DNA of 14,676 nt from Nitrospirota bacterium (lineage in GTDB: Bacteria; Nitrospirota; Nitrospiria; Nitrospirales; Nitrospiraceae): the NCBI GenBank assembly GCA_004296865.1, contig SCVQ01000469.1:1-14676 (forward strand), written 5' to 3'. This document shows positions 1 to 14,676 of this stretch, piece by piece (positions within the stretch are counted from its first letter, which is position 1; every line of letters starts with the position of its first letter). The translations under genes and the position numbers were made by a program. Below the pieces are notes generated by a model that searched no databases, was not told the DNA's origin, and saw nothing but the letters and a program-made list of their open reading frames with translations.

Positions 1-431
1 TCGTCGCCGCAGTGGCCGTTCCTAATTTCATCGCATGGATTGACCGAGCCCAGCTCAAAGATGCGTTGCTGGGACTGCACGGCAATCTGAACCTGGCGAG
101 GATGACCGCGATGAACCGAAATACTACCGTCACCGCCACACTGGCGGTGGTCAACAACCGGGTCACGGCAACATTCACCGACCCAGCCAATACCTCCGCA
201 GGGTGCTTGGCCAATCAGAGCCTCTGTGTGATTCCGACCCAGGTCATGCCCGGTCAGGTGACGGGGTTCGGAGGCGTGCCGCAGGTCCAGTTTAACTCAT
301 TGGGCCTGCGGGTTGGAGGGGGGGCGACAACCCAGACGATCCAGTTGACCAACAGTAAGGGCGTGACGTTTGAGATTCAAATCACGCCGGCCGGGAAGAC
401 GCGCTGGTGCACGGTCTCTCCCTGCCCCTAG
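1..431 (+). CDS. GspH/FimT-family minor pseudopilin, 3' part (5' end outside window)
   Basis: The frame is open from the first base; the first complete codon is at position 3 and the TAG stop is at 429-431. The visible start is the end of the hydrophobic pilin helix (AAVAVPNFIAW) followed by the amphipathic segment with the family pattern L..NLNLARMTAMNRN. The C-terminal half has GspH-type features: a short F-N-S-L-G-L strand motif followed by beta-strands and the phrase TPAGKTRWC. Two cysteine pairs (around residues 64-71 and near the C-terminus, WCTVSPCP) could form disulfides. The prepilin leader and G|F-T-L-I-E type cleavage site must lie upstream of the window. GspH/FimT/FimU proteins are minor pseudopilins that help prime pilus assembly in the inner membrane and periplasm. 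The downstream pilV-pilW-pilX-pilY1 genes make a FimT/FimU role in the pilus more likely than type II secretion. The gap to pilV is about 34 nt and is filled by a heptad repeat arm. Confidence 0.85.
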   Translation, partial: VAAVAVPNFIAWIDRAQLKDALLGLHGNLNLARMTAMNRNTTVTATLAVVNNRVTATFTDPANTSAGCLANQSLCVIPTQVMPGQVTGFGGVPQVQFNSLGLRVGGGATTQTIQLTNSKGVTFEIQITPAGKTRWCTVSPCP

Positions 432-434
432 AGA

Positions 435-513
435 GTTGTGAGTTGTGAGGTTTGAATTTTGAGTGATGAGACCAGGAAAACTCAACACCAAGCGATCAAA
501 ACTAAAAACTCCC
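435..513. repeat. Heptad inverted array, fimT-like/pilV junction (A/T-rich version)
   Basis: Five consecutive 7-nt units run from 435 to 469 (GTTGTGA twice, then GGTTTGA, ATTTTGA and GTGATGA). After a short spacer a complementary-type set runs from 479 to 513 (AACTCAA, CACCAAG, CGATCAA, AACTAAA, AACTCCC). The left arm is G/T/A-rich and the right arm A/C-rich, so they form an imperfect inverted repeat. The left arm begins 3 nt after the TAG stop of the upstream gene, and the right arm lies inside the pilV prepilin leader. Confidence 0.7.
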
Positions 514-978
514 GTTAGTCAGGGCGGCTTCACGCTGATCGAGGTCATGTTGGCGATGCTGCTGCTGACGGTGGGGCTGCTCGCGATTGCGGGCATGGTC
601 GAGATGTCGCTCGGCCGGAACGTGGACGCCAACGAGATCAGTCTGGCGACAAACTTGGCGTCCGACGTGATAGAGCGCATCCAGTTCAATCGGCAGAACG
701 TGACGGCGTACAACGGGGCGCTCAATTCGGGGATCGATACGTTGAACAGCGCGACCAGGCCGCCGGCCACGCAGCCGATGGCTAGGGGAGATTACGATCA
801 GTGGAGCGCCAGGCTGGCCGCATCGGGCTTGCGCAATGTCCGGGGGGTGGTCACGGTGTCGGCGACGGGGCCGACCGTGCCGTCGCTCAACCAGAGTCAG
901 GTGACGGTCCAGGTCAACTGGAGCAGTACGATCAGGACTAGGACGCTGGTCGTGAGCACCGTCGTCGCGCCTGAATAG
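466..978 (+). CDS. pilV: Type IV pilus minor pilin PilV (prepilin with class III signal)
   Basis: PilV is a minor pilin of the type IV pilus that works with PilW, PilX and FimT/FimU to prime assembly and place PilY1 at the tip. From the ATG at 466 the protein is 170 aa. It has a 21-residue basic leader, a PilD-type cleavage site G21|FTLIEV with Glu at mature position +5, and a 20-residue hydrophobic helix (MLAMLLLTVGLLAIAGM). The next segment resembles the PilV family pattern of helix followed by ATNLASDVIERIQFN. The C-terminal third (VTVQVNWSSTIRTRTLVVSTV) is typical of the final beta-strands. A GTG at 463 is directly upstream and equally possible; neither start has a clear Shine-Dalgarno sequence. 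The leader residues KLNTKRSKLKT are encoded by the right arm of the heptad repeat. The stop (976-978) is followed at once by the next repeat array. Confidence 0.9.
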   Translation: MRPGKLNTKRSKLKTPVSQGGFTLIEVMLAMLLLTVGLLAIAGMVEMSLGRNVDANEISLATNLASDVIERIQFNRQNVTAYNGALNSGIDTLNSATRPPATQPMARGDYDQWSARLAASGLRNVRGVVTVSATGPTVPSLNQSQVTVQVNWSSTIRTRTLVVSTVVAPE

Positions 979-1078
979 TGAACGGTGACGAGTGATGAGT
1001 GACGGGTCGCGAGAAGTCGGAGGTTGCTATGTGAGCGCGTCACGCGCCACGCGTCACGTGTCACCCGTTACGGTTCGC
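977..1078. repeat. Heptad inverted array, pilV/pilW junction (34-nt arms)
   Basis: The left-arm heptads are AGTGAAC (977-983), GGTGACG (984-990), AGTGATG (991-997), AGTGACG (998-1004) and GGTCGCG (1005-1011). The right-arm heptads are GCGTCAC (1037-1043), GCGCCAC (1044-1050), GCGTCAC (1051-1057), GTGTCAC (1058-1064), CCGTTAC (1065-1071) and GGTTCGC (1072-1078). Aligned by hand without gaps, 980-1013 matches the reverse complement of 1043-1076 at 25 of 34 positions, and three of the mismatches would be G-U wobbles in RNA. The roughly 29-nt loop contains the pilW ribosome binding site and start codon. Confidence 0.85.
1019..1023 (+). promoter_or_regulatory. Ribosome binding site that fixes the pilW start
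   Basis: GGAGG lies 7 nt upstream of the in-frame GTG at 1031. An earlier in-frame start at 992 has no such motif and lies within the left repeat arm, so 1031 is preferred. The site falls in the loop of the pilV/pilW inverted repeat. Confidence 0.7.
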
Positions 1079-2044
1079 GAACGCGGGGCCACTCTGGTCG
1101 AACTTATGTTCGGCGCGGCTATCGCCATGGTGGTCATGGGGGCCGGCTACACCGTGCTCAACGGCAGCCAGAAGGCCGCGTCCACCAACAGCCAGACCGC
1201 CGAGATGCAACAGAGCGCGCGGGTGGCCATGGAACTGCTGACGCAAGATCTCAAGACGGCGGGGTTCGGCATGAGCGGACCTGTGGGCAATTGCGCCAGC
1301 GCGATCGTGCCGGCGGATAACACGCCGGGTGGAGCCGACGTGGGGCCGGACTCGGTGTCCGTCGTCGTGCCGACTCTGCTCTCGACGTTGGCCGCTCAGG
1401 TCACCGGCGGGCCGACCGCCAACGCGATCACGCTTCAAAGCGGGGCTGTTGCGGCCATGACTCCGGATGGATTCGGCGTCGGCGCGGCCGTCTCGATCAA
1501 CGGGGCCTTGCCTGGCACCGTGAGCGGCCTCGCCGGCGATGTGCTGACGCTGGGGAACACGGTCGGCGCGCCCACCGTGTTTCCTGCCGGCACGCCGGTG
1601 TTCTGGCTCCGGTGCATCACCTACGCCATCGGCACCACCACTGCGGCCTGTGCCGGCAGTGCGCCCTGCCTGCTCCGTGGCGGGGTCGCCATCGCGGAAG
1701 GGATCGAGGACCTCCAGATCGCTTATGCCTGCGACGGGTGCAATGGAACGGCGTCGGACGGCGTGATCGACGACCAGAACGCGTCGAATACCTTCGACGC
1801 GGCGGATTTTATCTCCAACAGCACCTGGACGACTTCCCCGATGACCCCCGACACGATCCGCCTGGTCCGTATCAGCATCGTGGCCATGCAAACGCACAAC
1901 GACCAGAAATGGAGCAGCACTGCGCCGATCGTGGCGGAGGACCATAATCCGACAAACAACCAGGGATTCTCGCTGGGGACGTACCAACAGAGCCGGCGCC
2001 GGCTCCTGACCAGAACCGTGCAGGTCAGAAACTTGGGACTGTGA
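1031..2044 (+). CDS. pilW: Type IV pilus minor pilin PilW
   Basis: This is a minor pilin of the pilus-priming complex, 337 aa from the GTG at 1031. The leader is 19 residues and ends in RERG|ATLVEL. Cleavage after Gly19 leaves Ala at +1 and Glu at +5, followed by the hydrophobic helix MFGAAIAMVVMGAGYTVL. The segment after the helix (QQSARVAMELLTQDLKTAGFGMSG) is characteristic of PilW, whose members usually read R.A...L..DLR.AGF. The C-terminal RRLLTRTVQVRNLGL matches the usual PilW ending (R..T.TV.LRN). Several cysteines occur, including a CDGC motif near residue 230 and CAGSAPC shortly before it, which could form disulfides. Most of the leader (ASRATRHVSPVT) is translated repeat right arm. 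The next gene, pilX, follows after 24 nt. Confidence 0.88.
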   Translation: MSASRATRHVSPVTVRERGATLVELMFGAAIAMVVMGAGYTVLNGSQKAASTNSQTAEMQQSARVAMELLTQDLKTAGFGMSGPVGNCASAIVPADNTPGGADVGPDSVSVVVPTLLSTLAAQVTGGPTANAITLQSGAVAAMTPDGFGVGAAVSINGALPGTVSGLAGDVLTLGNTVGAPTVFPAGTPVFWLRCITYAIGTTTAACAGSAPCLLRGGVAIAEGIEDLQIAYACDGCNGTASDGVIDDQNASNTFDAADFISNSTWTTSPMTPDTIRLVRISIVAMQTHNDQKWSSTAPIVAEDHNPTNNQGFSLGTYQQSRRRLLTRTVQVRNLGL

Positions 2045-2104
2045 GCGACCGTGAGGGGATGATGAGCCATGAGTGATGAGACCGATTACGCCTCACGCCT
2101 CACG
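2041..2104. repeat. Heptad inverted array, pilW/pilX junction
   Basis: The left side has 7-nt units ATGAGCC (2062-2068), ATGAGTG (2069-2075) and ATGAGAC (2076-2082), preceded by CGTGAGG (2050-2056). The right side has GATTACG (2084-2090) and CCTCACG twice (2091-2097, 2098-2104). CGTGAGG is the exact reverse complement of each CCTCACG copy. The array covers the pilX ribosome binding region, its ATG and its first 12 codons. Confidence 0.75.
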
Positions 2105-2686
2105 TCCGAGCGGGGGGTGGCATTGCTCACCGTCCTGCTGCTGATGGTGATTCTGACGATCGTCGGCATCGTGGCCATCACGGTGACCGGTGTGGAGAAT
2201 CGGATGGCCGGCTATGTCCGGACCACCGAGTCGGGGACCAGCGCCGCTGAGGCCTGTATGGGGACCGCCGTGAACGTCATTCAGCAGACCATCGATAATG
2301 GCACGTTGTCGGCTTCTTTCCTGGACAATGCCGTGCCGGCGGGACCGGTGCCGGCCGGCAATGCGACGACCCTGGAGCAGGAAATCATGGGTCAGTCCGA
2401 TAACAACCCCGATGCGGCCGACACCGCCCCGAATACGGTGGCGACGGTGAATACGTTCACGGTGCGCGGGGACATCGACCGGCTCTACGTCGTGGGCAAA
2501 ACGGGTGGCTCGCTGCAGTTTGCGGGGGGCTATGAAGGGACGGCGGGCGGCGCCGCCAGCGGCGGGGTCGATATTTATTACCGTGTTGACTGCTCCGCCA
2601 CAAATGCGGCTACGAGTACCAAAAGCCGGGTCACAGCGGTCTATGTCTGCACGAGCACCGGTGAATCGTGTCAGAGAAAAATATAG
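2069..2686 (+). CDS. pilX: Type IV pilus minor pilin PilX (PilX N-terminal domain)
   Basis: This 205-aa protein has the PilX N-terminal signature: ERG followed by a hydrophobic helix (VALLTVLLLMVILTIVGIVAI), then ENRMAGYVR and SAAEAC. Those elements correspond to the family's E.RMA......A..AAEA pattern. As in many PilX proteins, the residue after the leader glycine starts VALLTV rather than FTLIE, so the conserved Glu+5 is absent. Whether the prepilin peptidase processes it is therefore uncertain. The C-terminal domain has paired cysteines (RVDC, VYVC, ESC). The ATG at 2069 is the only good in-frame start; GAGGGG at 2053-2058 is a plausible Shine-Dalgarno sequence 10 nt upstream. The first residues (YASRLTS) are encoded by the repeat right arm. 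PilX joins PilV, PilW and PilY1 in the pilus tip and priming complex. Confidence 0.85.
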   Translation: MSDETDYASRLTSERGVALLTVLLLMVILTIVGIVAITVTGVENRMAGYVRTTESGTSAAEACMGTAVNVIQQTIDNGTLSASFLDNAVPAGPVPAGNATTLEQEIMGQSDNNPDAADTAPNTVATVNTFTVRGDIDRLYVVGKTGGSLQFAGGYEGTAGGAASGGVDIYYRVDCSATNAATSTKSRVTAVYVCTSTGESCQRKI

Positions 2687-2699
2687 GTGAGGGCACATC

Positions 2700-3080
2700 A
2701 TGGCAAACGGAAAGACTAGTGGCGAGAATCGGACGGAACAGCAAGCAGGGACTGCAAGTTGGTTGGGGGTAGTCTTGTGGGTGACCCTTGTGGTGCTGGT
2801 GTTCGGCAGCGCCCTGATCGTGGGCGGCGTGGGTTGGGCCCAATCCTCTGACTCTTCTGCGACGGCCGGCTTTCAGTCGGGTGAGGTGACGGACAAACAA
2901 GGCCGTACCATCTCCATCAGCGGCCAGGGTTATTCCCTGTCCTCGGAGGCCGTCATCAAAGATGATGAGGGGCGAACGAAGGGCGAGAAGGACCTAGTCC
3001 CGGGCACCCTGGTCAAGTTCCACCTGAGTCGGGGCAGCGCGGATCAGATTGACCAGATTGTCATCATTCTGCCGAGATAA
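2700..3080 (+). CDS. Small membrane-anchored or exported PilY2-like protein
   Basis: This is a 126-aa protein starting at ATG 2700, with AGGTGAGGG at 2685-2693 giving a strong Shine-Dalgarno 6 nt upstream; that site overlaps the pilX stop. Residues about 20-45 are a hydrophobic segment (LGVVLWVTLVVLVFGSALIVGG) after a polar 19-residue N-terminus. It ends in GWAQ, so it could be either a transmembrane anchor or a long signal peptide cleaved near residue 47. Residues 60-126 form a small beta-rich domain with the pattern GEVTDKQGRTISISGQGY, then SLSSEAVIKDD, then LVPGTLVKFHL and QIDQIVIILPR. That layout, with position next to pilY1, resembles PilY2, a small accessory protein of fimbrial biogenesis in Pseudomonas. 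The resemblance is judged by eye and the function is inferred. Confidence 0.6.
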   Translation: MANGKTSGENRTEQQAGTASWLGVVLWVTLVVLVFGSALIVGGVGWAQSSDSSATAGFQSGEVTDKQGRTISISGQGYSLSSEAVIKDDEGRTKGEKDLVPGTLVKFHLSRGSADQIDQIVIILPR

Positions 3081-3142
3081 GCGTGACGCGGTTGAGTCGA
3101 ATCGCTCCGGTCCTGTTTTTTCCGCCGGGGTGAGTAGGGATG

Positions 3143-3148
3143 AAGGAG
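3143..3148 (+). promoter_or_regulatory. Ribosome binding site of pilY1
   Basis: AAGGAG lies 7 nt before the ATG at 3156. It is one of the best-matched Shine-Dalgarno sequences in the window and fits high expression of the tip adhesin. The 75-nt gap (3081-3155) has no clear heptad array, only a short GTGACGCGGTTGAG fragment and a T6 run at 3116-3121. Confidence 0.65.
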
Positions 3149-3155
3149 AACAGCC

Positions 3156-6100
3156 ATGAGACGCCGGACCATCACCGTAATCGCAATCGTGACATTGATG
3201 CTGATCGGTGGACTGCCGTGGACGAGCGATGTCCATGCCCAGGTCCTGGCCGACTACACCGCAAGCCCGCCCTTTACCACTGCCGCCGTGCCACCTAATA
3301 TTCTGCTCCTGCTGGACAACTCCGGCAGCATGAACAGAATGGCGTATACGGCCGCCTTCGATCCGACCTACACGTATTCCGGCATTTTCGATTCGACGCA
3401 GTGTTATACGTATGGAAGCAACGTATTTCAGCCGAACCCATCTCCCAGCACAAAGCCCTGCTCCGCGTCCTACCCCTGGGATGGAAATCTGCTGAACTAT
3501 GTGTCGATGCGCGAGATCGATATTGTGAAAGTGGTCATGCTGGGGGGGCAGTGCACGGCGGGAGGGCGGTCCGCGCAGGGCACCTGCACCAGACTGGCGG
3601 GCCAATCGACGTTTTCCAACGCGGCCTGCTGCGCGGACCAAACCCAGTCGATCACGGCGGCCCAGGCGGCGGGGCTGATGCCGTCCTCTCTGATCCCGGG
3701 GTCCGGCAACGTGTACTTCCACAGCATGGGAAGCATCAGTACCCTCAAGGGCAGCTTCTGTGTATCCAGCTCGAGCACCCAGCCCAGCGGGAATTCGACC
3801 TGTCCTTCCCAATGGCAGATTCAAGCCAATGTTCCCGTGAATCCCACCGGGATCATTCAGCAGGTGGGCAGTAAGGCCCGGTTTGGGCTCATGGAGTTCA
3901 ATAGCGGAGCCAATAATACGACCACGACCGATGGGGGCGTAGTCCTTAACAATGTGGGCGGGACTGTCACCAGCATGGTCACGGCCATCGAGAATACGAC
4001 GCCCTCCGCCTGGACCCCGCTGGCAGAATCGCTCTACGAGGCCACACGGTACTTTGCCCAGGTGCCGCCGGCCTTCGCGGGATCTGATTACACGTACAAC
4101 GTGACGAATCAAGATCCCTATTATTTCCTGAAGCCGGGTTGGACCGACACGTCTCAGTACGTCAACTGCTGCAAGAGCTTTGTCCTCATCTTTACCGATG
4201 GGCAGCCGACGCAGGACAAGGACATTCCAGCCAGCCTGCAAGACTATGCCCATACGGCAGCCAACCATGGCACAAGCGATCATTGCGCCGGTGCAAGCGG
4301 ATGTACCGGCACGCTCAGCAGTCACTCCAATACCTCTTCAACCTTCCACAACAGCTTAACGGACCACCACGATAACTGTTCGGCCTACTTTGGAGGTGCC
4401 ACGTCGGATTCCTGTGTGGCGAACGGGTCTCACTATTTGGACGACGTGGCCTATTTTGCCCACATCACTGATTTGCGACAGGCCACCGTGCCGGTCCTTG
4501 GTACGGGGCAGGATCTGCCCGGCATGCAGAATCTCACGGTCTATGCGTTTTTTGCTTTCGGCACGGGGGGGAATCTGCTGAAAGATGCGGCGAAGGTCGG
4601 CGGGTTCACCGATCTGAACGGGAACAACCTCCCGGACCTGCAGCAGGAGTGGGATCAGGTCAACAACCAGACCGGGGCTCGGGGGAGTGACGGCATCCCC
4701 GACAACTACTTTGAGGCGACCGATGCCAGCAAGCTGCAAGAGCGTCTGATGGCCGCTATCACCAGCATCCTCCAGCGCAGCGCGTCGGGGACCTCGGTCT
4801 CGGTGCTGGCCACGTCGTCCACCGGCGACGGCTCGCTCTATCAGGCGTATTTTTTCCCGCTCCAATACGAGGGGCTGAACTCCGTGGCGTGGACCGGGTA
4901 CACGCAGGGGCTCTTCATCGACGAGTTCGGGAATGTCCGGGAAGACACCGATGGGGATGGAAAACTCATTTACCAGAACGACATCATCATCCGGACTCGA
5001 TACGACAGCAATAGCGGCAATGTGCTGGTGGATCGGTTTGTGGATTCCGACGGCGACGGAAAATCCAACGGCCCTGCGACTCCCGCGACGGTGGGGCTCA
5101 AGGAGATCAAACCCATCTGGGAAGCGGGCCGTCGGCTGGCCCTGACCTCCCCCTCCGCTCGGACCATCCTGACCTGGGTGGACATCAACAACAACGGCAT
5201 CGTGGATGCAGGGGAGCAGATTCCCTTCACCACCGCCAACTCGGCGACCCTGGCCCCCTATTTGCGGGCCGGGGCTGCTCCGTATACGGCCGATAACATC
5301 GTCAACTTCGTTCGCGGCAGCCAGGTGACCGGCCTGCGGGACCGGCAGTTGACGGTCACGGATGACGCCGGGGCGAGCGCCTTGCAGGTCTGGAAGATGG
5401 GCGATCCGATCAATGCCACGCCCACCGTGGTCGGGGCTCCCAAGGAGCGGTTTGACGTGATTTACGGGGATGCCAGTTATACGGCATTCTTCCAGCAGTA
5501 TAAGAGCCGCCGCCAGGTGGCCTACGTGGGGGCCAACGACGGGATGCTCCATGCGTTCAACGGCGGGTTTTATCACAAGGGCGACGACCCCAACACGCCT
5601 GGCGCCACGGAACATGGCTACTTCACCCGCACCGCCGCAGACAACAGCGGCGGGGCGCTGCTGGGGCAGGAGCTCTGGGGGTTCATTCCGTATCAACTCC
5701 TTCCGCATTTGCAGTGGCTGACGCAGAGCGGGTACACCCACGTCTACTATGTCGATTTGAAGCCGAAGGTGACGGATGTCCGGATTTTCACCCCGGATGC
5801 GGACCATCCGAACGGCTGGGGGACGATCCTGATCGGAGGGATGCGGATGGGCGGCAGTTGCGGAGCCTGCGTGTCGAGCACCGGCGCGCCTCCCATGACC
5901 GTAACGGCCGATTTCGGCAGCGGTGTGCAGACACGCACCTTCTACACCGCCTATTTCGTGTTGGATATCACCAATCCGGACAAGAGTCCGGTGCTCCTGT
6001 GGAGTTTCACCGATTCCACCCTGGGACTCTCGACCAGCTATCCGGCCGTACTGCGCGTGAAGCCGGCCTGCTCGACCCCCGGTTGCAAGACCGACAACAG

Positions 6101-7301: not shown

Positions 7302-7304
7302 CCA

Positions 7305-7377
7305 CGTGTGAGGTGCGCAACGTGAGGCGTCAGGCATGAGAAAGGCCATCCTCTTGCCTCTGGCCTCTTGCCTCTGG
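7305..7377. repeat. Heptad array at the pilY1/lipoprotein junction, with a 14-nt tandem repeat
   Basis: The left-arm units are CGTGAGG (7321-7327), CGTCAGG (7328-7334) and CATGAGA (7335-7341). The right arm is a perfect 14-nt tandem duplication (7350-7363 and 7364-7377), each copy made of CCTCTTG plus CCTCTGG. The arms are roughly complementary (CGTGAGG against the reverse complement CAAGAGG). The lipoprotein ATG lies in the last left-arm unit, and the right arm encodes the signal-peptide core. An additional GTGTGAGG lies at 7306-7313. Confidence 0.75.
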
Positions 7378-8319
7378 TCGCTTGCCCTGGTTGTTCTTGT
7401 CGGCTGCACGGAACGCTCGTCTCAAGGCGAGGCGGAGCGGTCTGAGCGGGCCGCCTCGGCACCCCCATTGGCCGGCCCGGCCGGTGGACAGCCCAATCGT
7501 GCCCCCTCCGTGCGATCCGCTCGTATCGCACCCAATCCGGTGCTTCTCAACGGCTCGATCCTAGTTCAGGTGGATGGGGAGGATATGGACGGGGACCCGC
7601 TGACATTTCGTTATCACTGGTTGGTCAACGGCGATCGGATTGAGGGGCAGACCCAGTCCACACTGAATCCGCGCTTGGCGAAACGTGGCGACCTCCTTGC
7701 CGTGGACGTGGTCCCGTTTGACGGAAAGGTTGAGGGGGTACCGTATCGCACCGATCCGGTGGTGGTCGGCAATACCCCGCCCGAAGTGGTCCGCGTCGTG
7801 CTCGCGCCGAGCCAGGTGCGGGCGGGAGACCGTCTGCGCGCGCAAGTGGAGGGGGCTGATGCGGATCAGGATCCCATCCGCTACAAGTTTCGGTGGTGGC
7901 GCAACAACCAGCTCGTCTCGGAAGGAGAGGCCGGCGAACTGGAGACGGTCGGGTGGGTGCGGGACGACCTGATCGTGGTGGAAGTGACGCCTTTCGATGC
8001 CGCCGGCGCGGGACAGGCGAGGTTCTCCGAGCCGATTGCGATTGCCAACAGCCCTCCGACGATCACGTCCGTCCCTCCCACGGCGATCGACGCGGGGCGG
8101 TATCAATACGCCGTCAAGGCCACCGATCCGGAAGGCGATCCGCTGACCTATGGGCTCGACGGCGCGCCACCCGGCATGACGATCGATACAAATACCGGCC
8201 GCATCGAATGGCGGATTATGGCCGGCAGGAGGGAGACTCACCGGGTCCGCGTCTCCGTACACGATAACCGCGAGGGATATGCCTTTCAGGAATTTGCTCT
8301 GACTCCCGAGAAGAATTGA
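7336..8319 (+). CDS. Ig-like / cadherin-like repeat lipoprotein
   Basis: This is a predicted lipoprotein of 327 aa. The signal sequence (MRKAILLPLASCLWSLALVV) ends in a lipobox L21-V-G-C24, so the mature protein should start at an acylated Cys24. A low-complexity linker (Ser/Glu/Ala/Pro/Gly, about 25-53) precedes three related beta-sandwich modules at about 54-143, 146-236 and 238-325. Each carries an acidic turn: D83-M-D-G-D-P-L, A176-D-Q-D-P-I and D264-P-E-G-D-P-L. The third module resembles putative-Ig (He_PIG/cadherin-like) domains, with LDGAPPGMTIDTNTGRIEW. Such domains bind other proteins or carbohydrates and often calcium. GAGG at 7324-7327 is a plausible ribosome binding site. It starts 34 nt after pilY1 and is probably in the same operon, so it may be an outer-membrane partner of the pilus; that role is inferred. 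Confidence 0.8.
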   Translation: MRKAILLPLASCLWSLALVVLVGCTERSSQGEAERSERAASAPPLAGPAGGQPNRAPSVRSARIAPNPVLLNGSILVQVDGEDMDGDPLTFRYHWLVNGDRIEGQTQSTLNPRLAKRGDLLAVDVVPFDGKVEGVPYRTDPVVVGNTPPEVVRVVLAPSQVRAGDRLRAQVEGADADQDPIRYKFRWWRNNQLVSEGEAGELETVGWVRDDLIVVEVTPFDAAGAGQARFSEPIAIANSPPTITSVPPTAIDAGRYQYAVKATDPEGDPLTYGLDGAPPGMTIDTNTGRIEWRIMAGRRETHRVRVSVHDNREGYAFQEFALTPEKN

Positions 8320-8406
8320 CGATCGATAGATTGACGATTGAGGGATTGGCGGATTGGGGAAATCATGGCAATCGTCAATGCCGTGTAATTCTCAATGATT
8401 CAATTC
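8313..8406. repeat. Imperfect inverted repeat after the lipoprotein gene (ATTGACG version)
   Basis: Units of 7-8 nt related to ATTGACG occupy 8313-8358. A perfect 11-bp complementary pair is ATTGACGATTG (8330-8340) with CAATCGTCAAT (8369-8379), and an outer pair is GAATTGA (8313-8319) with TCAATTC (8400-8406). The left arm overlaps the lipoprotein stop codon. There is no terminal T-run, so it is not a classic terminator, but it could protect the 3' end of the pilus operon transcript. Confidence 0.75.
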
Positions 8407-8413
8407 CTCCTAC

Positions 8414-8443
8414 TTGCTGGCATCTTCGGCGGTCTGGTAGAAT
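8414..8443 (+). promoter_or_regulatory. Candidate sigma70-type promoter for the phoH operon
   Basis: TAGAAT (8438-8443) matches the TATAAT -10 consensus at 5 of 6 positions. TTGCTG (8414-8419) matches the -35 consensus at 3 of 6, with an 18-nt spacer. It lies between two inverted repeats in the only non-coding gap long enough for a promoter, so transcription would begin near 8450 and include the second inverted repeat as leader. Predicted by eye only. Confidence 0.4.
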
Positions 8444-8451
8444 GCCCCCGT

Positions 8452-8550
8452 AAAGAATTGACGATTATCTGCGATTGTCGGATTGTCGATTCGAAGATGT
8501 GTGGATACGCAATTCGTCAATCGTTCAATCGTCAAGGAATCAATTTTTTT
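8452..8550. repeat. Inverted repeat ending in T7 in the phoH leader
   Basis: The left arm, from about 8452 to 8496, contains GATTGTCG twice in tandem (8473-8480, 8481-8488). The right arm, about 8507-8549, contains CGTCAATCGTTCAATCGTC. At the base, 8452-8461 can pair with 8540-8549 over 10 positions including one G-U. Internal GATTG units pair with CAATC units. A run of seven T (8544-8550) follows or overlaps the base of the stem, then GGAGGG (8552-8557). This looks like a leader hairpin or attenuator before phoH. Confidence 0.6.
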
Positions 8551-8573
8551 CGGAGGGTCCTCGTAGACCAGGC

Positions 8574-9641
8574 GTGCGCAAGATCAAGTTTCGAGAAGGA
8601 ACCAACACCGCGAGCCTGTTCGGCTCTCGCGACCTGCACCTCAAGATGATCGAGGATGAGCTTGGGGTGCGGATCGGGGCAAGGGGAGACGAACTGGGAC
8701 TGGCCGGCGCCCCGGATGCCGTTCGAAAGGCGGAACGGGTCTTGACCGAGCTGGCCTCCTTGACCGCCGAGGGGTACGAGCTCAGGGCCGACGACGTGGC
8801 GGTGGCGCTCAAGGCGGCGCGAGGCTCGACGGACGTCCCGCTGAAAGAACTCCTCCTCGGCACCGTTCCCATCGCAACCAAAAAGCGTTTTGTCATGCCC
8901 AAGTCGGCCGCCCAGAAGGCCTACCTGGAGGCGATTCAGAAATTCGACATCGTCATCGGGATCGGCCCGGCCGGGACGGGAAAGACCTACCTGGCCATGG
9001 CCATGGCGGTGGCCGCGCTGACCAAGAAGGAGGTCAGCCGCATCATCCTCGCCCGTCCGGCCGTCGAAGCCGGAGAAAAACTCGGGTTTCTGCCCGGGGA
9101 CATGTACGACAAGATCAATCCCTACCTCCGGCCCCTCTATGACGCGCTCTACGACATGATGGAGATGGAGCGGGCGAACCGCTTGGTGGAGCGCGGCGAG
9201 ATCGAGATCGCGCCCCTGGCCTTCATGCGCGGCCGCACGCTCAACGATTCGTTCGTGATCCTGGACGAAGCGCAGAACGCGACCACCGAGCAGATGAAGA
9301 TGTTTCTGACCCGGCTGGGCTTCAATTCCAAGGCGGTGATCACCGGCGACATTACGCAAGTGGACCTGCCGTCCGACCGACGCTCGGGTCTCATCGAAGT
9401 GCGCGACATTTTGCAGGAGATTCCCGGCATCGAGTTCGTGTACTTCAACGAACAGGATGTCGTGCGCCACCGGTTGGTCCAGGAGATCATCAAGGCCTAT
9501 GACCGGCATGATCCGGTCCGGTCCGGTCCGGCTTCGGCCCGCGCGCAGGCGCCTCGTCCCGGGGGGCGAGGCGTGAAGCGGTGGCCCAGGCCTCGCCCCG
9601 TCGATCCCCACGGGGAAGGCGATGCGGGACAGCCGCACTGA
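8574..9641 (+). CDS. phoH: PhoH-like P-loop ATPase (YbeZ family)
   Basis: This is a PhoH/YbeZ-type nucleotide-binding protein, 355 aa from the GTG at 8574, linked in other bacteria to YbeY and ribosome/RNA quality control. The N-terminal ~80 residues (LFGSRDLHLKMIEDELGVRI...) look like the KH-like region of the family. The ATPase domain has Walker A G131-PAGTGKT138, Walker B with ILDEAQN (D231, E232), the conserved RGRTLNDSFV before it, and the sensor-like VITGDITQVDLP. An upstream TTG (8475) would add 33 residues of translated repeat and is rejected. GTG 8574 fits the usual RKIKFREG start. The GGAGGG at 8552-8557 is 16 nt away, longer than usual, and a 4-bp GGTC/GACC hairpin (8556-8569) lies between. 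The last ~40 residues are an Arg/Pro/Gly-rich tail. The stop overlaps the ybeY ATG by one base. Confidence 0.92.
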   Translation: MRKIKFREGTNTASLFGSRDLHLKMIEDELGVRIGARGDELGLAGAPDAVRKAERVLTELASLTAEGYELRADDVAVALKAARGSTDVPLKELLLGTVPIATKKRFVMPKSAAQKAYLEAIQKFDIVIGIGPAGTGKTYLAMAMAVAALTKKEVSRIILARPAVEAGEKLGFLPGDMYDKINPYLRPLYDALYDMMEMERANRLVERGEIEIAPLAFMRGRTLNDSFVILDEAQNATTEQMKMFLTRLGFNSKAVITGDITQVDLPSDRRSGLIEVRDILQEIPGIEFVYFNEQDVVRHRLVQEIIKAYDRHDPVRSGPASARAQAPRPGGRGVKRWPRPRPVDPHGEGDAGQPH

Positions 9642-10099
9642 TGCCGGTGCTGGTGCGGTGCCGGCTCAGCCTGGTGCGTCTCTTTCGGGCGCGGATCGAA
9701 ACGCTGGCGCAGGCCGTCGTTGCCGCTGCCGGTGACCCGGACGCCGAACTCAGCCTCCTGCTGGTCGGGGATCGCCGGATGCGGCGCTTGAACTGCGAGT
9801 ACCGCCGCAAGGACAAGACCACCGATGTCTTGGCCTTTCCGATGCGGGAAGCCGACGGACCCGCCTCCTCCCTCCTGGGCGATGTCGTGATCGCACTCCC
9901 ACAGGCTGCCCGTCAAGCCAAGGCCGGCGGCCATTCTCTGGACCATGAACTGGCCGTCCTCTTGGTCCACGGCATCCTGCATCTGTTCGGGTATGACCAC
10001 GAGCGGGGGGAGCGTGAGGCCATGCGGATGCGACGGAAAGAACGGGCCATTTTGCGAAGGCTGGAGCCGTTGCCGAAGCTAGTAAGACGTGAGGGGTGA
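9641..10099 (+). CDS. ybeY: Endoribonuclease YbeY (rRNA maturation factor)
   Basis: YbeY is a zinc-dependent endoribonuclease needed for 16S rRNA 3'-end maturation and 70S quality control. The 152-aa protein carries the signature H110-GILH114-LFGYDH120, whose three histidines bind the metal. It also has the conserved Y54-RRKDKTTDVLAFP segment, with Arg in the expected position, and GDVVIALP. The ATG at 9641 overlaps the phoH TGA as TGATG, indicating translational coupling; the only SD-like sequence (GGGA, 9626-9629) is weak and 11 nt away. The length is typical. The often-seen HD-domain membrane protein gene between phoH and ybeY is absent here. The last codons (RREG) are part of the left arm of the heptad array that leads into ftsY. 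Confidence 0.95.
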   Translation: MPVLVRCRLSLVRLFRARIETLAQAVVAAAGDPDAELSLLLVGDRRMRRLNCEYRRKDKTTDVLAFPMREADGPASSLLGDVVIALPQAARQAKAGGHSLDHELAVLLVHGILHLFGYDHERGEREAMRMRRKERAILRRLEPLPKLVRREG

Positions 10100-10165
10100 T
10101 GCGGCATGAGTAAACAACGCTTTCACTCATCAGGGATCATGCATCACTTATCACGCATCACGAAC
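10088..10165. repeat. Heptad inverted array, ybeY/ftsY junction
   Basis: The left-arm units are CGTGAGG (10088-10094), GGTGATG (10095-10101) and CGGCATG (10102-10108). The right arm has six uninterrupted 7-nt units: CACTCAT (10124-10130), CAGGGAT, CATGCAT, CACTTAT, CACGCAT and CACGAAC (ending 10165). The left arm overlaps the last four ybeY codons and stop. The right arm ends 2 nt before the ftsY ATG. Confidence 0.85.
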
Positions 10166-10167
10166 CG

Positions 10168-11100
10168 ATGAGCTGGTTACAACGACTCAGTCAGGGCTTG
10201 GCGAAGACCCGCGATGCGGTCCGGGGGTCGCTGGACCGTCTGATCGGCCGCGGGCCGGACCCGGCGGCGCTGGACGAGCTGGAAGCGGCGCTGATCACAG
10301 CCGATCTCGGGGTCCATACGGTGCAGCGCCTCATGGAGCGCGTGCAGACCGAGTTGCGCCGGCGCGACTTCGACGCATCGGATCCGAGCCGGCGCCTCCT
10401 GCTGGCCTTGAAGGACACGATCCAGGCCCAGCTTCGCGGGTGCGAAGGGCCGCCGGTCGAGCGCCTGATCGAACAAGGGTCGAAGCCCTACGTGATCCTG
10501 GCGGTCGGGGTGAACGGTGTGGGGAAAACCACGACGGTGGCCAAGCTGGCGCAGCGATTGCGGCAGGGCGGAAAGGCGCCGTTGCTGGTGGCCGCGGACA
10601 CGTTCCGCGCCGCCGCGATTGAGCAACTGGAAGCCTGGGGCAAGCGGGTGGGGGTGGACGTCGTCCGACATCATCAAGGGGCGGATCCCTCGGCCGTGGT
10701 GTTCGACGGGCTGTCTGCGGCCAAGGCCCGCGCCGCCGACGTGGTGCTGATCGATACGGCCGGCCGCCTCCACACCAAGGCCAATTTGATGGACGAACTA
10801 AAAAAAATGAAACGGGTCTTGGCCCGCGAGTTGCCCGGCGCGCCGCACGAGGTGCTGCTGGTGGTGGACGCGACGGTGGGGCAGAACGCCCTGTCCCAGG
10901 CCAGACTGTTCAACGACGCGGTCGGGGTGACCGGGATTGTCTTGACGAAGCTGGACGGGACCGCCCGCGGGGGCATCGTGGTGGCCATTGCCGAGGAGTT
11001 GAAGATTCCGGTCCGGTTGATCGGCGTGGGGGAGGCGGTGGAGGATCTGCAGGATTTTCACGCCCGGGAATTCGTCGACGCCTTGTTCGAGCCGGCGTAG
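10168..11100 (+). CDS. ftsY: Signal recognition particle receptor FtsY
   Basis: FtsY is the membrane-associated SRP receptor GTPase that delivers ribosome-nascent chains to the Sec translocon. The 310-aa protein has an N domain (about 1-95) and a G domain with G1 GVNGVGKTT (114-122), the FtsY/Ffh insertion motif DTFRAAAIEQLE, G3 DTAGRLHTKANLMDEL, G4 TKLDGTARGG and the closing GVGEAVEDLQDFHAREFVDALF. It lacks the long acidic A domain of the E. coli protein (497 aa). The N-terminal helix MSWLQRLSQGLAKTRDAV is the usual membrane-targeting helix of short FtsY proteins and supports the ATG at 10168. No Shine-Dalgarno sequence is visible, because the upstream 40 nt are the repeat right arm. Confidence 0.97.
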   Translation: MSWLQRLSQGLAKTRDAVRGSLDRLIGRGPDPAALDELEAALITADLGVHTVQRLMERVQTELRRRDFDASDPSRRLLLALKDTIQAQLRGCEGPPVERLIEQGSKPYVILAVGVNGVGKTTTVAKLAQRLRQGGKAPLLVAADTFRAAAIEQLEAWGKRVGVDVVRHHQGADPSAVVFDGLSAAKARAADVVLIDTAGRLHTKANLMDELKKMKRVLARELPGAPHEVLLVVDATVGQNALSQARLFNDAVGVTGIVLTKLDGTARGGIVVAIAEELKIPVRLIGVGEAVEDLQDFHAREFVDALFEPA

Positions 11101-11110
11101 AGGCTGCCAA

Positions 11111-13381
11111 GTGTTTTGCCTCCCCGCCGCCGCCAGGATTCAGCACAGGTGGACCGTGCCGTTTGTCGGAATCGTTCGGGCCTGTGTTCTTGCGGGGGGA
11201 CTGTCGGGTCTTTTCTGTGTCCCCGGCGAGGCGGTTGCCGGCTCATCGCTCTCTCTGCCCGATCACCGGACGGTTGAGATTCTGTCCCACGATCTCAGCC
11301 TGGCACTCTTCCCCGATCGCCATGAACTCAAAGCGACCGATCGCCTCACACTCAAGGTGCTGACGCCTCAGCTCGATCAGGTGTCCGTTCTGCTCAATGC
11401 CGGGCTGCGCGTGACTTCTGTGCGTCGGCAGAGCGGGTCTCAATCGCATCCCCTCTCATTTGTGACGGAGCCGGGGCAGGGCCGCGATGCCGGTGGCCAA
11501 GAGGCGGTGCGATGTGTCACGGTCCATGTGAACGGGGAGGCGTTGCCCGGACAAATTCTGACCCTGGAGTGGGACTATGAAGGAACGATCAACGATCCGC
11601 CGCGCGAGTCCCGCCACCTGCGGTTCGTGACGCCGAGCGAAACGGCGGGGCACATTGGAAACGAGGGGATCTACCTGAGCGGGGAAACCCGGTGGTATCC
11701 AGACCAAGCCGGATCGCTGGCGACCTTTCGAGTGGCGGTCACGACCCCTGAAGGCTGGCAGGCGGTGACGCACGGCAGGGAGGTTCGAAGGACCGGCCGG
11801 CCCTCAACCTTGACGGCAGCCTCGACGACGGAATGGGACGTGTCCGCCAAAACAGAGGCCCTCACGGTGGTGGCGAACCGCTTCACGGTCAACCGGCGGG
11901 ACTGGCGTGATGCCACAGGAAATCGGATCGAAGTTGCGACCTACCTGTTTCCGGAGGACGCAACACTGGCCGAGGAATATCTGGACGCCTCGGTCCGGTA
12001 TCTGGATGCCTATACGAAACTCTTGGGACCGTATCCCTTTCCGAAGTTCGCCGTGGTGGAAAATTTTTTTGCCAGCGGGCTCGGCATGCCCTCCTTCACC
12101 TTGCTCGGGAGCGGAGTCGTAAAGCGCCATTACACCCAGCCCTATGCCCTGGGGCACGAGATCGTCCATTCGTGGTTCGGGAATTGGGTGTTCAATGACG
12201 TGCAAGCGGGGAATTGGGTGGAAGGACTGACGACCTACCTCGCCAACTATTATTATGACGAGCATGTGGGACGCTCCGAGCAAGCTCGCGACCAGCGGCG
12301 CATGATGGTGCTGGGTTATGCCGTGTACGTGAGATCGGAGGACGACTATCCGGTCGGGCAATTTCAGCAGAAGGTCGATCAGAAGGACAACGCCATTGGC
12401 TATCAAAAAGCGGCCATGGTCTTTCATATGCTCCGGCGCGAGGTCGGGGAAGAGGCCTTTTGGGGCGGGCTCCGGAAGCTGGTCGCCGACTACGGCGGCA
12501 GGTATGGGACCTGGCGGGACGTCGAGCGGGTCTTTTCTGACGCGACGGGACGCGACCTTCGGTGGTTCTTTGAACAATGGGTGGAACGAGCCGGGGCTCC
12601 CAGTCTGAAGATTGTGGAGGCCGTGACGCAGGGTTCGGCCTCTTTGGCCGGTGACTACACCGTCACGGTGCGCATGACGCAAGAGGGGGGACCGTATCGG
12701 CTTCGCCTTCCTGTCTCGGTGAAGATGGCGGGAGGGCAGACGCAGGTCGCTCTCGTGCCGATGGAGTCGGTTGAGCAGACGGCCACCGTTGTTGTGCCGG
12801 CCAAGCCGATCAGCGTCACGATCGATCCGGCGTTCGACTCGTTTCGACGGCTCTCCCGCGATGAAGTCCCTCCCATGCTAAACCTCTTCATCACGGACCG
12901 GCAACGGTCCCTGGTCTTACCCAGTGATGGGACGGAGGCGGAACGTGCCCCCTACGTGGAACTGGCCGGCCAGATCGCCTCGCGTGAGCCGGATATCGTG
13001 AAGAGCTCCGACCAGGATGCGGTCTTGCCGGGTGGCTCTGTGTTAGTCTTGGGCGGCCCGGGCAAGAATCGCGCGGCCGGCTGGGTGGCCCAAGCCTGCG
13101 GCAAGGGGGTCCGTCTCGAACCGAATCGATTCACCGTGGGGGACACAACTTATGAAGGAACCGGCGCGGCCTTGCTGGTCTCCTGTCGCCGGCCGGATCG
13201 GTCCGGTGAGGTGGCGACGATGTTCTACGGCCTGACGCCTCAGGCGGTGGGCAAGGTGGCGCGCCTGCTGTTCTTCTACGGATGGCAAAGTTATCTGGTG
13301 TTTAACGAGGGGGCCGTGGTGGCGCGGGGTGATTTTGCGCCGTCACGGGATGAGGGGGAGGTAGTGGTTGATGCGCCGTAA
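11111..13381 (+). CDS. Secreted M1-family (gluzincin) metallopeptidase
   Basis: This is a predicted exported zinc aminopeptidase-like protein of 756 aa. The GTG at 11111 has AGAGG (11099-11103) 7 nt upstream, overlapping the ftsY stop; a GTG at 11156 is an alternative. The signal peptide probably ends AVA43|GSS. A beta-rich N-terminal domain (about 50-280) resembles the M1 bowl domain. The catalytic domain has H349-E-I-V-H353 with the third ligand E371 in NWVEGLTTYL, and a candidate catalytic Tyr431 in GYQKAAMVFHML. The usual exopeptidase motif GAMEN is replaced by NFFASGLGMPSFT. The spacing HExxH to Glu is 17 residues instead of the canonical 18. A C-terminal domain (about 590-756) has an alternating beta/alpha layout ending in YGWQSYLVFNEGAVVARG. 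Activity as an aminopeptidase is not assured. The gene overlaps the next one by 11 nt. Confidence 0.88.
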   Translation: MFCLPAAARIQHRWTVPFVGIVRACVLAGGLSGLFCVPGEAVAGSSLSLPDHRTVEILSHDLSLALFPDRHELKATDRLTLKVLTPQLDQVSVLLNAGLRVTSVRRQSGSQSHPLSFVTEPGQGRDAGGQEAVRCVTVHVNGEALPGQILTLEWDYEGTINDPPRESRHLRFVTPSETAGHIGNEGIYLSGETRWYPDQAGSLATFRVAVTTPEGWQAVTHGREVRRTGRPSTLTAASTTEWDVSAKTEALTVVANRFTVNRRDWRDATGNRIEVATYLFPEDATLAEEYLDASVRYLDAYTKLLGPYPFPKFAVVENFFASGLGMPSFTLLGSGVVKRHYTQPYALGHEIVHSWFGNWVFNDVQAGNWVEGLTTYLANYYYDEHVGRSEQARDQRRMMVLGYAVYVRSEDDYPVGQFQQKVDQKDNAIGYQKAAMVFHMLRREVGEEAFWGGLRKLVADYGGRYGTWRDVERVFSDATGRDLRWFFEQWVERAGAPSLKIVEAVTQGSASLAGDYTVTVRMTQEGGPYRLRLPVSVKMAGGQTQVALVPMESVEQTATVVVPAKPISVTIDPAFDSFRRLSRDEVPPMLNLFITDRQRSLVLPSDGTEAERAPYVELAGQIASREPDIVKSSDQDAVLPGGSVLVLGGPGKNRAAGWVAQACGKGVRLEPNRFTVGDTTYEGTGAALLVSCRRPDRSGEVATMFYGLTPQAVGKVARLLFFYGWQSYLVFNEGAVVARGDFAPSRDEGEVVVDAP
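13353..13361 (+). promoter_or_regulatory. Ribosome binding site of the TolB-like gene
   Basis: AGGGGGAGG lies inside the end of the peptidase gene, 9 nt before the ATG at 13371. It supports ATG 13371 over the adjacent TTG at 13368 and indicates coupled translation with the upstream gene. Confidence 0.65.
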
Positions 13382-14495
13382 ATTTGCAGTTGTCGTGGTT
13401 CTTCTGACCCTGTTTTTTATCCCGGCCGAGTCCACGTTCGTCCGGTCGGTGAAGGCGGAACAAGCCGAACGTCACTTGGCGAATATCCGCCAACTTACGT
13501 TTGGGAACAAGAACGCCGAGGCGTATTTCTCGTTTTCCGGTCGGAAGCTGATTTTCCAGTCCACAAACGATTGGAGGGACCGAGCTCAGGCCACGAGCAA
13601 GACCGACGGCGGCAAGGGCCTGGGGTGCTACCAGATGTATGTGATGGATCTGGAGAGCGGGGCGGTCAGGCTTGCGAGTACGGGGGTCGGCGCCACGACC
13701 TGCGGCTATTTTCTCCCCGGCGATCGGCGCGTGCTCTATTCCTCCACACACCTCGTCAGCCCCAGTTGCCCGCCGAAGCCCAAGACGGAAGGGAAGTACC
13801 GCTGGGCGCTGGACGACTACGAAATCTTCTCGGTCCGGCTGGACGGGCAGCAGGTCCAACGGTTGACCGTGATGCCGGGCTATGACGCTGAAGCCACGGT
13901 CTCACCGGACGGCAGGACGATCGTCTTTACCTCGGTCCGAGACGGTGACCTGGACATCTACACCATGGACCTCGACGGGGCCCATGTCCGGCGTCTCACG
14001 AAGGAAGTGGGTTACGATGGCGGCGCCTTCTTCTCGCCGGACAGCCAGCGGATCGTCTACCGGGCCTCTCATCCCAGCGATCAGGCCGAGCTGGAGAAGT
14101 ATCAAGCCCTGCTGGCACAACGTTTGGTGGAGCCCGGCCAACTGGGCATCTTCGTCATGAATGCCGACGGCACCGGCCAGCGTCAGGTGACCGCCAACGG
14201 GGCGTCCAACTTCGCGCCCTTCTTTCATCCCGACGGCAGGCGCATTATCTTTGCCTCCGATCAGCACGAGCGTCAGCCGGACCGGTCATCAGAACAGCCG
14301 GCCGATCGTCCACACTCGTTTCATCTCTACCTGATCGGCGACGACGGGACCGGTCTGGAGCAGGTGACGTTTGCGGGAGGGTTCAACAGTTTTCCGATGT
14401 TCTCTCCGGATGGGAAGCAAGTCGTCTGGGTGTCCGACCGCAACACGACCTCGCGCGGAGAGTTCAATGTGTTTCTCGCGGATTGGATTCCGTGA
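13371..14495 (+). CDS. Exported TolB/PD40-type beta-propeller protein
   Basis: This 374-aa protein has a signal peptide (MRRKFAVVVVLLTLFFIPAE, probable cleavage VKA29|EQ) and a beta-propeller of TolB-like PD40 repeats. The repeats are visible as S56-GRKLIF, S178-PDGRTIVF, S222-PDSQRIVY, H286-PDGRRIIF and S345-PDGKQVVW. They are linked by DLDGAHVRRLT, ADGTGQRQVT and DGTGLEQVT connectors, which is the D-x-G-x-x-x-R-x-L/V-T pattern of this family. It lacks the N-terminal TolB domain and is not adjacent to tolA or pal, so it is not canonical TolB. Such proteins act in the periplasm as binding scaffolds, or as the propeller part of peptidase systems. The 11-nt overlap with the M1-type peptidase gene suggests a shared pathway; that is inference. 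A heptad array follows directly after its stop. Confidence 0.85.
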   Translation: MRRKFAVVVVLLTLFFIPAESTFVRSVKAEQAERHLANIRQLTFGNKNAEAYFSFSGRKLIFQSTNDWRDRAQATSKTDGGKGLGCYQMYVMDLESGAVRLASTGVGATTCGYFLPGDRRVLYSSTHLVSPSCPPKPKTEGKYRWALDDYEIFSVRLDGQQVQRLTVMPGYDAEATVSPDGRTIVFTSVRDGDLDIYTMDLDGAHVRRLTKEVGYDGGAFFSPDSQRIVYRASHPSDQAELEKYQALLAQRLVEPGQLGIFVMNADGTGQRQVTANGASNFAPFFHPDGRRIIFASDQHERQPDRSSEQPADRPHSFHLYLIGDDGTGLEQVTFAGGFNSFPMFSPDGKQVVWVSDRNTTSRGEFNVFLADWIP

Positions 14496-14497
14496 AG

Positions 14498-14564
14498 ACG
14501 TGACGAGTGATGAGTAACGCAGACTCGACCACGCACCACGCATCACGCATTACGCATTACGTTG
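14498..14564. repeat. Heptad inverted array, TolB-like/last-gene junction
   Basis: The left-arm units are ACGTGAC (14498-14504), GAGTGAT (14505-14511) and GAGTAAC (14512-14518). The right-arm units are CACGCAC (14530-14536), CACGCAT twice (14537-14550), TACGCAT (14551-14557) and TACGTTG (14558-14564). The segment 14498-14520 matches the reverse complement of 14540-14562 at about 16 of 23 positions. The right arm is inside the next reading frame. Confidence 0.8.
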
Positions 14565-14676
14565 CCATCAGCCTCTCCTGTGCCGCTCTGGCCGGGGTGT
14601 TTTGGGGACTGCTCCAAGTAGACCTGCCCTTGGCTCGCTTCTTACGATCCGTCCACCATGCCGGGCTTGAACAAGC
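14510..14676 (+). CDS. Start of a membrane protein, possibly PAP2-family phosphatase (3' end outside window)
   Basis: An open frame from ATG 14510 continues 55 codons to the window end without a stop. It begins MSNADSTTHHASRITHYV, encoded by the heptad array, then a hydrophobic stretch (AISLSCAALAGVFWGLLQV) that would be a first membrane helix, followed by DLPLARFLRSVHHAGLEQ. That last segment resembles the N-terminal region of PAP2-type membrane phosphatases, where a D-x-P-x-A-x-F-L-R motif follows the first helix. The catalytic motifs would lie outside the window, so the family is only a suggestion. There is no clear Shine-Dalgarno sequence; the start lies in the left repeat arm, 14 nt after the TolB-like stop, so translation may be coupled. 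Confidence 0.6.
   Translation, partial: MSNADSTTHHASRITHYVAISLSCAALAGVFWGLLQVDLPLARFLRSVHHAGLEQ

Follow-up and report, generated by a model that had tools for sequence, protein, structure and literature searches.

In a 14,676-base stretch of DNA from a Nitrospirota bacterium of the family Nitrospiraceae (the whole of contig C385 in a 2.71-Mb assembly of 613 contigs, hereafter the window), intergenic gaps are often filled by elements made of two facing arrays of a 7-nucleotide (nt), sometimes 8-nt, unit around a short spacer. The best explanation, with a probability of roughly 0.57, is that these are simple-sequence hairpin elements that grow and turn over at the DNA level and are filtered by the flanking reading frames. 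An earlier note, made from the window alone, had described polarised inverted 7-nt arrays at most of its gene junctions; that observation is partly confirmed, in that the architecture, its polarity and its placement between genes are real and recur throughout the family.

Under this explanation, replication slippage would expand and contract the units within one arm, and hairpin template switching would copy one arm onto the other. These two processes are favoured because units turn over while the arms of an element agree, with no strand-specific mismatch bias. According to published work, template switching can create stems and restore stem pairing (PMC8794818) and can homogenise the arms of inverted repeats (PMC8604942). 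The flanking reading frames would decide which arrays survive. The arm meeting the 3' end of a gene would have to give stops soon, and with one TGA per 7-nt unit all three frames are stopped within 21 nt; the arm meeting a gene start would be poorer in stops and readable as an N-terminal extension; and few arrays would be expected in divergent gaps, which contain promoters. Although probably without a dedicated regulatory role, the arrays alter protein ends and displace Shine–Dalgarno sites.

Facing heptad arrays in the Nitrospiraceae

Arrays were examined in detail in 1.92 Mb from six family genomes, namely G000, to which the window belongs, and G024, G011, G020, G032 and G017, which were picked as array-rich and sampled as tile runs or first tiles of contigs. 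For G000, hits also guided the choice of ten of the 20 extra contigs. Because genomes and contigs were picked for arrays, the densities given here are not those of an average family genome. With a tract defined by at least 16 of 21 matches at lag 7, intergenic gaps of 30–600 nt contained 214 tracts (G024 39, G011 41, G020 110, G000 12, G032 3 and G017 9). Other lags from 4 to 12 gave at most 12 tracts in any of the six genomes, ten dinucleotide shuffles gave a mean of 0–0.2 lag-7 tracts per genome, and gene cores held 33 in 1.28 Mb. This large excess over shuffles bears out one of two tests by which the earlier note had asked to be judged. The other, unequal presence among gene-pair types, had the same outcome: tracts occur in 143/816 co-directional, 33/171 convergent and 17/227 divergent gaps (divergent against the remaining 176/987, p = 5e-5). 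Among gaps of 60–149 nt the counts are 89/376, 24/79 and 3/64, respectively.

Neighbouring tracts within 120 nt form 80 pairs, 75 of them inverted and five direct. Units are more similar between the two arms of an element (0.645) than to arms of other elements in the same genome (0.473; 0/500 permutations). The unit family varies by junction and includes GTGAYGN, GTGAAAN, AGTTNTC, GGCYTAT, GGCGAGR, GGTCANT, CGTTAAN and others. Because most units are GTRAYGN-like and lack GGG tracts, G-quadruplex formation cannot, to judge by unit sequence, be the general cause of the arrays; GTGAYGN, GTGAAAN, AGTTNTC and similar units have no GGG tract per unit, though G runs do occur in the minority family GGCGAGR.

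Reverse-complementing an inverted array gives the same array, so only the order of its two arms is informative. The window therefore cannot test the claim that orientation is always the same relative to transcription, since all its genes lie on the plus strand and an inverted array reads alike on both strands. Family-wide, one arm order prevails. Among 69 clean pairs (the 75 inverted pairs minus six with arm similarity below 0.55), the in-register motif R-G-Y is commoner in the forward reading in 61 pairs and in the reverse reading in 7, one pair being tied; for units other than the GTGA and GTAA types the counts are 27, 5 and 1. The alignment carries 3.71 bits of information, whereas 60 random orientation flips reach at most 2.93; in the non-GTRA set the figures are 3.16 and 2.71. 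This comparison somewhat favours the real set, which had 30 restarts to the flips' 6. The 61 of 69 is also counted in the very set in which the RGY grammar was discovered; an independent set, obtained at a slightly looser tract threshold and comprising only 7 pairs (2 of them non-GTRA), gave 6 forward and 1 tie. G–C skew points the same way, with G>C in 59 of the 75 inverted pairs and C>G in 3, two of which seem to combine arms of adjacent elements; the other 13 have zero skew or the same sign in both arms. Single tracts give a less clear picture, with 177/226 at the gene boundary expected from their skew. Purine content, tried as a polarity measure, fails on T-rich units and was replaced by G–C skew and RGY register.

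An RGY-N4 polarity is thus common to unrelated units. It might mean that unrelated heptamer families follow one strand-specific grammar, with R-G-Y at a constant position in most units of the 5' arm and its reverse complement in the 3' arm, irrespective of the remaining four bases, and hence that a dedicated activity recognises RGY at 7-nt intervals on one strand and builds and re-copies hairpins at gene junctions. Such an activity, for which an integrase, a polymerase that copies hairpins or a nascent-strand primer would be candidates, is a long shot. If true, RGY-guided hairpins would make up a heptad-based element class different from repetitive extragenic palindromes (REPs) and miniature inverted-repeat transposable elements (MITEs).

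Beyond the six genomes, three consecutive GTRANGN units were found in 98/118 family genomes examined. The reversed control pattern was absent or rare in most, with G002 (23/28) and G012 (4/21, above its forward count) among the exceptions. In a phylum-wide draw the pattern matched in 83/198 genomes, including G221, G213, G224 and G266 from outside the family. Four genomes of family f14 in the same draw (G125, G134, G167 and G175) have the reversed control commonly and the forward pattern rarely or not at all, which suggests that f14 genomes carry another heptad unit family.

Units change at fixed junctions between species

The window's FtsY is closest to that of Nitrospira-lineage metagenome-assembled genomes (L001, 91% identity over full length; L006, 97% over residues 80–309). 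The array upstream (5') of ftsY in the window is GTGAYGC-like. In its place L001 carries a different hairpin and L002 an array of 8-nt GGAGACGC units, and in L003–L005 the gap is short and array-free; L009 has a GTGAGGC-like array farther 5'. In L001 the ybeY frame stays open across the repeat, and its end overlaps the start of ftsY. At the junction of the TolB-like gene and the window's last gene, L001 has the orthologous array with other units, and the lipoprotein/phoH junction is kept in both L174 and L001 with length changes. Three other Nitrospirota loci (L014, L015 and L019) carry a different repeat 5' of ftsY, of the form CTCTCCCTCTCCCC...GAGGGAGAGGG.

One junction was followed through genus g9, where 28 of 30 loci were anchored and 27 used, one 480-nt junction being dropped. 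Over the 27 species, coding identity is 0.871, junction identity 0.597 and mean lag-7 match 0.453. Both arms have GTTAGGC/GTAAGGN units in some species and GTGATGN units in others, and arm agreement is slightly higher within species (0.446) than between them (0.419; 2/5000 permutations). The unit at one and the same junction thus differs from species to species. In 8/27 species the hairpin is weak or lost (best arm-alignment score at or below 14, a threshold set by us).

Arrays that are enriched after stops, depleted from divergent gaps and better folded than shuffles (mean z about -3.5 in co-directional elements) could instead function as RNA. As hairpins in leaders or at the 3' ends of transcripts they would act in stability, attenuation or translation control and be kept by selection on the transcript. 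A Shine–Dalgarno-like 4-mer is indeed scarcer at genes with an array at the start (23/86) than at those with an array elsewhere in the gap (21/42) or without one (314/592); the gene caller rewards such motifs, which is expected to lessen, not create, this difference. REPs have been argued to act as RNA on similar grounds, as set out in part of PMC3733652. Selection on transcript pairing, however, would make mismatches that keep a G·U pair commoner than A·C in the sense RNA, and they are not: 45 co-directional elements have 57 G·U against 59 A·C (95% interval of the G·U share 0.40–0.59). G·U and A·C counts elsewhere are 16 and 14 in convergent elements, 16 and 19 where the middle of the element lies inside a called gene, and 1 and 5 in divergent elements; at the g9 junction they are 21 and 14. 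The mismatch and fold counts leave out two of the 75 pairs, whose arms are separated by more than 80 nt. Folding differs little between sense and antisense strands in co-directional and convergent elements, and in the three divergent ones the antisense folds better; the weakness or loss of the hairpin in some g9 species also speaks against an RNA role. Because G·U mismatches are no commoner than A·C, sense-RNA pairing is under no detectable selection, which argues against strong, not weak, RNA-level selection. A functional RNA hairpin, the role first proposed in the earlier note, is thus unsupported by the mismatches and appears unlikely; the note's alternative, a self-propagating or self-growing DNA repeat, fits better.

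Elements that are dispersed, palindromic and intergenic recall mobile elements of the REP type, including bacterial interspersed mosaic elements (BIMEs), or of the MITE type, copied by a Y1 transposase such as the REP-associated tyrosine transposase (RAYT) or by another transposase; REP termini also supply stop codons, as noted in a portion of PMC3733652. Matches spanning the loop were found between element pairs in G024 (7/136), G011 (7/105) and G020 (9/465), and an element of G084 used as a query gave at least 17 short matches elsewhere in genus g9 that span both arms and the spacer at 71–78% identity. These similarities leave room for element copying, but units vary from one junction to the next, and chance alignments of spacers may arise from the heptads alone. 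Y1 transposase matches occur in the window's own genome and in G011, G017 and G020. In contrast, the array-rich genomes G024, G032, G034, G038, G004 and G029 (completeness 72–99%) have no match at E<=0.001, whereas G058, G098, G061, G066 and G072 have 6–12 Y1 matches and 1–7 array hits. As read from these gene complements, a Y1 transposase is not required for the arrays, though it is present in some array-rich genomes, and transposase-driven mobility is quite unlikely.

Stops and starts at array edges

In the 149 tract-bearing gaps no longer than 200 nt, the median distance is 11 nt between the left gene and the start of the first tract, and 8 nt between the end of the last tract and the right gene. 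At 122 gene ends an array starts near the stop, and the stop heptad fits the array in 66. Tracts that start before the stop are in register in 54/54 cases; those that start at or after it are in register in 12/68, near the 1/7 expected. The array thus overlies the gene end and supplies the stop codon at 54 of the 122 gene ends. A founding role of the stop codon, considered because 66/122 stops are in register and 41 of these have no further matching unit inside the open reading frame (ORF), was ruled out: register follows overlap, and the stop did not seed the array, because agreement is complete for overlapping tracts and not otherwise. Start codons are in register less often (21/93, null 1.2%).

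Comparison with array-free orthologues pointed to overlap with replacement of the stop. Nine of 16 in-register genes are longer by 1–5 residues, 5 shorter and 2 equal, whereas 60 of 392 control genes are longer by 1–7 residues and 232 equal (p = 0.0003 for longer ends); among off-register genes, 15/21 share their end with array-free orthologues. Arrays of this kind rewrite the ends of ordinary genes, ybeY here, and affect the annotation of gene starts and ends.

On entering an element, stops occur in 2.13 of the 3 frames within the first 35 nt, compared with 0.89 in the last 35 nt (73 elements, both strands). Half of the element entries (50%) have stops in all three frames over these 35 nt, against 14% of exits, and hardly any tracts have a period divisible by 3. 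Both observations would suit selected translation insulators, in which stops in three frames at the end of a gene would catch ribosomes that run on or have shifted frame. Yet families without stops in the entry arm exist, a stop block needs no hairpin partner arm, and lags 4, 5, 10 and 11, which are not multiples of 3, are also nearly absent, so that selected insulators are highly improbable.

Several observations weigh against growth at the DNA level filtered by reading frames. Slippage and template switching alone do not give a single polarity, and the stop-codon filter cannot explain the polarity of left-arm families that contain no stops, AGTTNTC and AGCCNTC; 12/69 pairs have more stops on the other strand and 5 tie. 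By G–C skew, 49/226 single tracts (8/20 of those in divergent gaps) lie at the "wrong" boundary, and more single tracts are nearer a start (54) than a stop (31). The orthologue comparison covers only 16 in-register genes, and a cruder measure, ends within 3 residues, shows no separation (12/16 against 314/391 controls). The whole-element-like matches at other sites in genus g9 suit element copying. Finally, no mutation event was observed.

Elements of the window and published relatives

The window holds 13 genes and 12 junctions. Genes were called with our own simple codon-usage caller, whose calls here match the ORF list; the names pilY1 and ftsY are taken from the earlier note, and a Pfam scan covered the other genes. 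The pilV-like gene has an N-methylation motif and the lipoprotein-like gene an Ig-like domain; the scan gave no match for the 126-aa gene. Lag-7 p-values below come from 1,000 dinucleotide shuffles, with significance at p<=0.005; they are post hoc, the tested stretches having been taken from the earlier note's list and some reaching into ORFs. No strand is assigned to the repeat elements.

Whole window, + strand: GspH/fimT-like, pilV-like, pilW, pilX, 126-aa gene, pilY1, lipoprotein-like, phoH, ybeY, ftsY, M1-peptidase-like, PD40/TolB-like, cut-off last gene.
432..517: fimT/pilV element; left arm with GTTGTGA/GAATTTTGA-like units, right arm within the called pilV ORF (466-978, start 466); lag-7 p=0.001; inverted arms 447-462/496-511, 81%; fold z -1.96.
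979..1078: pilV/pilW element; called pilW start GTG 1031 between the arms, GGAGG at 1019-1023; lag-7 p=0.001; arms 980-1011/1045-1076, 75%; fold z -2.75. The right arm would encode the pilW N-terminus.
2041..2106: pilW/pilX element; called pilX ATG (2069) in the left arm, right arm within the pilX ORF; lag-7 p=0.005; no ungapped inverted pair of at least 8 nt found; fold z -2.64.
7302..7384: pilY1/lipoprotein element; GTGAGGC-type left arm and a pyrimidine-rich heptad tract (7346-7384) within the lipoprotein-like ORF, encoding its signal-like N-terminal segment; lag-7 p=0.003 for 7302-7345; no inverted pair found; fold z -0.35.
8316..8410: lipoprotein/phoH element A; mixed 7/8-nt GATTGACG units; fold z -3.92.
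8411..8450, + strand: non-repetitive 40-nt block between elements A and B, nearly identical in alignments with L174 and L001.
8455..8550: lipoprotein/phoH element B, 5' of phoH; GATTGAC-like units; arms 8472-8489/8514-8531, 78%; fold z -3.43.
10088..10165: ybeY/ftsY element; ybeY stop TGA (10097-10099) within the left arm; lag-7 p=0.001; arms 10096-10111/10146-10161, 81%; fold z -2.87.
14490..14564: TolB-like/last gene element; TolB-like stop codon (14493-14495) at the element edge; lag-7 p=0.001; arms 14499-14515/14538-14554, 76%; fold z -0.37.

The core of the shared architecture stands, though not at every junction listed in the earlier note. Six of nine testable junctions have significant lag-7 periodicity (fimT/pilV, pilV/pilW, pilW/pilX, pilY1/lipoprotein, ybeY/ftsY and TolB-like/last), and the 2700-gene/pilY1 (p=0.61), lipoprotein/phoH (p=0.13) and M1/TolB-like (p=0.55) junctions do not rise above shuffles. 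Inverted arms of at least 8 nt occur in 5 of the 7 regions examined, the longest or best pairs being 75–86% complementary, and were not found at pilW/pilX or pilY1/lipoprotein. Runs described as exact are degenerate, with single units that vary: only 428-464, 1034-1071, 7346-7384 and 14525-14565 reach 16/21 lag-7 matches, and 10124-10165 falls below. Nor is the absence of arrays confined to overlapping genes or very short gaps, as the array-free 2700-gene/pilY1 gap measures 75 nt. RNA folding is better than in shuffles in 6 of 8 elements (z -1.96 to -3.92), the pilY1/lipoprotein and TolB-like/last elements being no better than shuffles; an array-free control gap gave z +0.80. At pilV, pilW, pilX and the lipoprotein gene the right arm lies inside the called ORF and is therefore predicted to be translated. 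An Rfam scan of the window gave zero matches at gathering thresholds.

The lipoprotein/phoH junction, which had been taken for plain 7-nt arrays, is mixed 7/8-nt and consists of two elements that flank a conserved block; over the whole junction lag 8 is the peak, at 0.39, and the arms of A and B also pair with one another. The block is almost identical in L174 and L001 though the flanking arrays differ, and may be a regulatory site of phoH. A scan of 8300-8600, the one stretch scanned, found no sigma-70 consensus and no intrinsic terminator, a GC-rich stem with a T run after it.

Over-representation of heptamers in bacteria has been noted but is unexplained, and published work on Xanthomonas leans on G-quadruplexes. 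Known 7-nt precedents, said in the earlier note to be tandem rather than polarised and inverted, in fact include convergent inverted arrays: Rehm et al. (2015; PMC4692102) describe GGGAATC and GGGGA(C/T)T heptamer arrays in Xanthomonas and Nostoc, with 70 inverted convergent GGGAATC pairs in Xcc and 75 in Xac, and stress G-quadruplexes. In the parts of that paper drawn on here, the arrays resemble the present ones in their 7-nt units, mostly intergenic location, inverted convergent pairs and rarity between divergent genes, in a G-rich strand that lies just 3' of the stop, or antisense just 5' of the start, and in length and sequence that vary between related species at conserved positions. The Nitrospiraceae arrays likewise show a 7-nt intergenic excess, an inverted G-rich strand running away from the ORF boundary and depletion between divergent genes; unlike those of Rehm et al., many unit families coexist in one genome, mostly without GGG, and, read from sequence, G-tract units able to form G-quadruplexes are not their rule. 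Stop supply and RGY-N4 polarity are not described in those parts of PMC4692102, beyond some repeats overlapping stop codons. Polarised inverted heptamer arrays as such are thus already known; new here are arrays mostly without G-quadruplex units and an RGY-N4 polarity across unrelated units. As the same polarised architecture is found mostly without GGG and with many units per genome, it is the architecture, not the G-tract, that recurs. A search of open-licence papers found none on these repeats in Nitrospira. The arrays also lend themselves to direct tests, through the symmetry of mismatches, the turnover of each arm at orthologous junctions and the capture of stop codons.

The short tandemly repeated repetitive (STRR) heptanucleotides of cyanobacteria are dispersed 7-nt tandem repeats, like the present arrays in being dispersed and built of 7-nt tandem units and unlike them in being described as tandem. 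Heptanucleotide repeats of Calothrix are mentioned in part of PMC4692102. The TAACTGA direct repeats of Beggiatoaceae (MacGregor 2015; PMC4679880) also have a 7-nt intergenic unit with stop codons and rare Shine–Dalgarno sites; as far as the relevant portion of that paper goes they differ in being direct (with one indirect repeat), of a single unit sequence and mostly just 5' of starts. Direct repeats without an inverted partner, as in TAACTGA and STRR repeats, are not the pattern here, where 75/80 pairs are inverted, although single tracts also occur. REPs and BIMEs, described in part of PMC3733652 as GTAG/CGTC-tagged palindromes of 20–40 bp, are similar in being palindromic, often in opposite-facing pairs, located between co-directional and convergent genes and able to supply stops from their termini, but they are not heptad arrays. 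A Y1 transposase, expected of them in array-rich genomes, is without a match in the six named above, some of whose assemblies are incomplete.

Two further loci deserve mention. The pilY1/lipoprotein element is mostly kept in the same-genus contig L174 (G007:C100), whose alignment with the window skips from 7521 to 8135, so that its lipoprotein gene is seemingly about 600 nt shorter (a deletion or an assembly effect). In L199 (G084:C10:1-20000), many small called ORFs are set apart by numerous heptad tracts (GAATGNG, AGTGGYR and GAGGTTR), mostly on one strand; some of the ORFs look by eye like PIN-type toxin–antitoxin genes, and the locus may be a cassette array or an accessory island.

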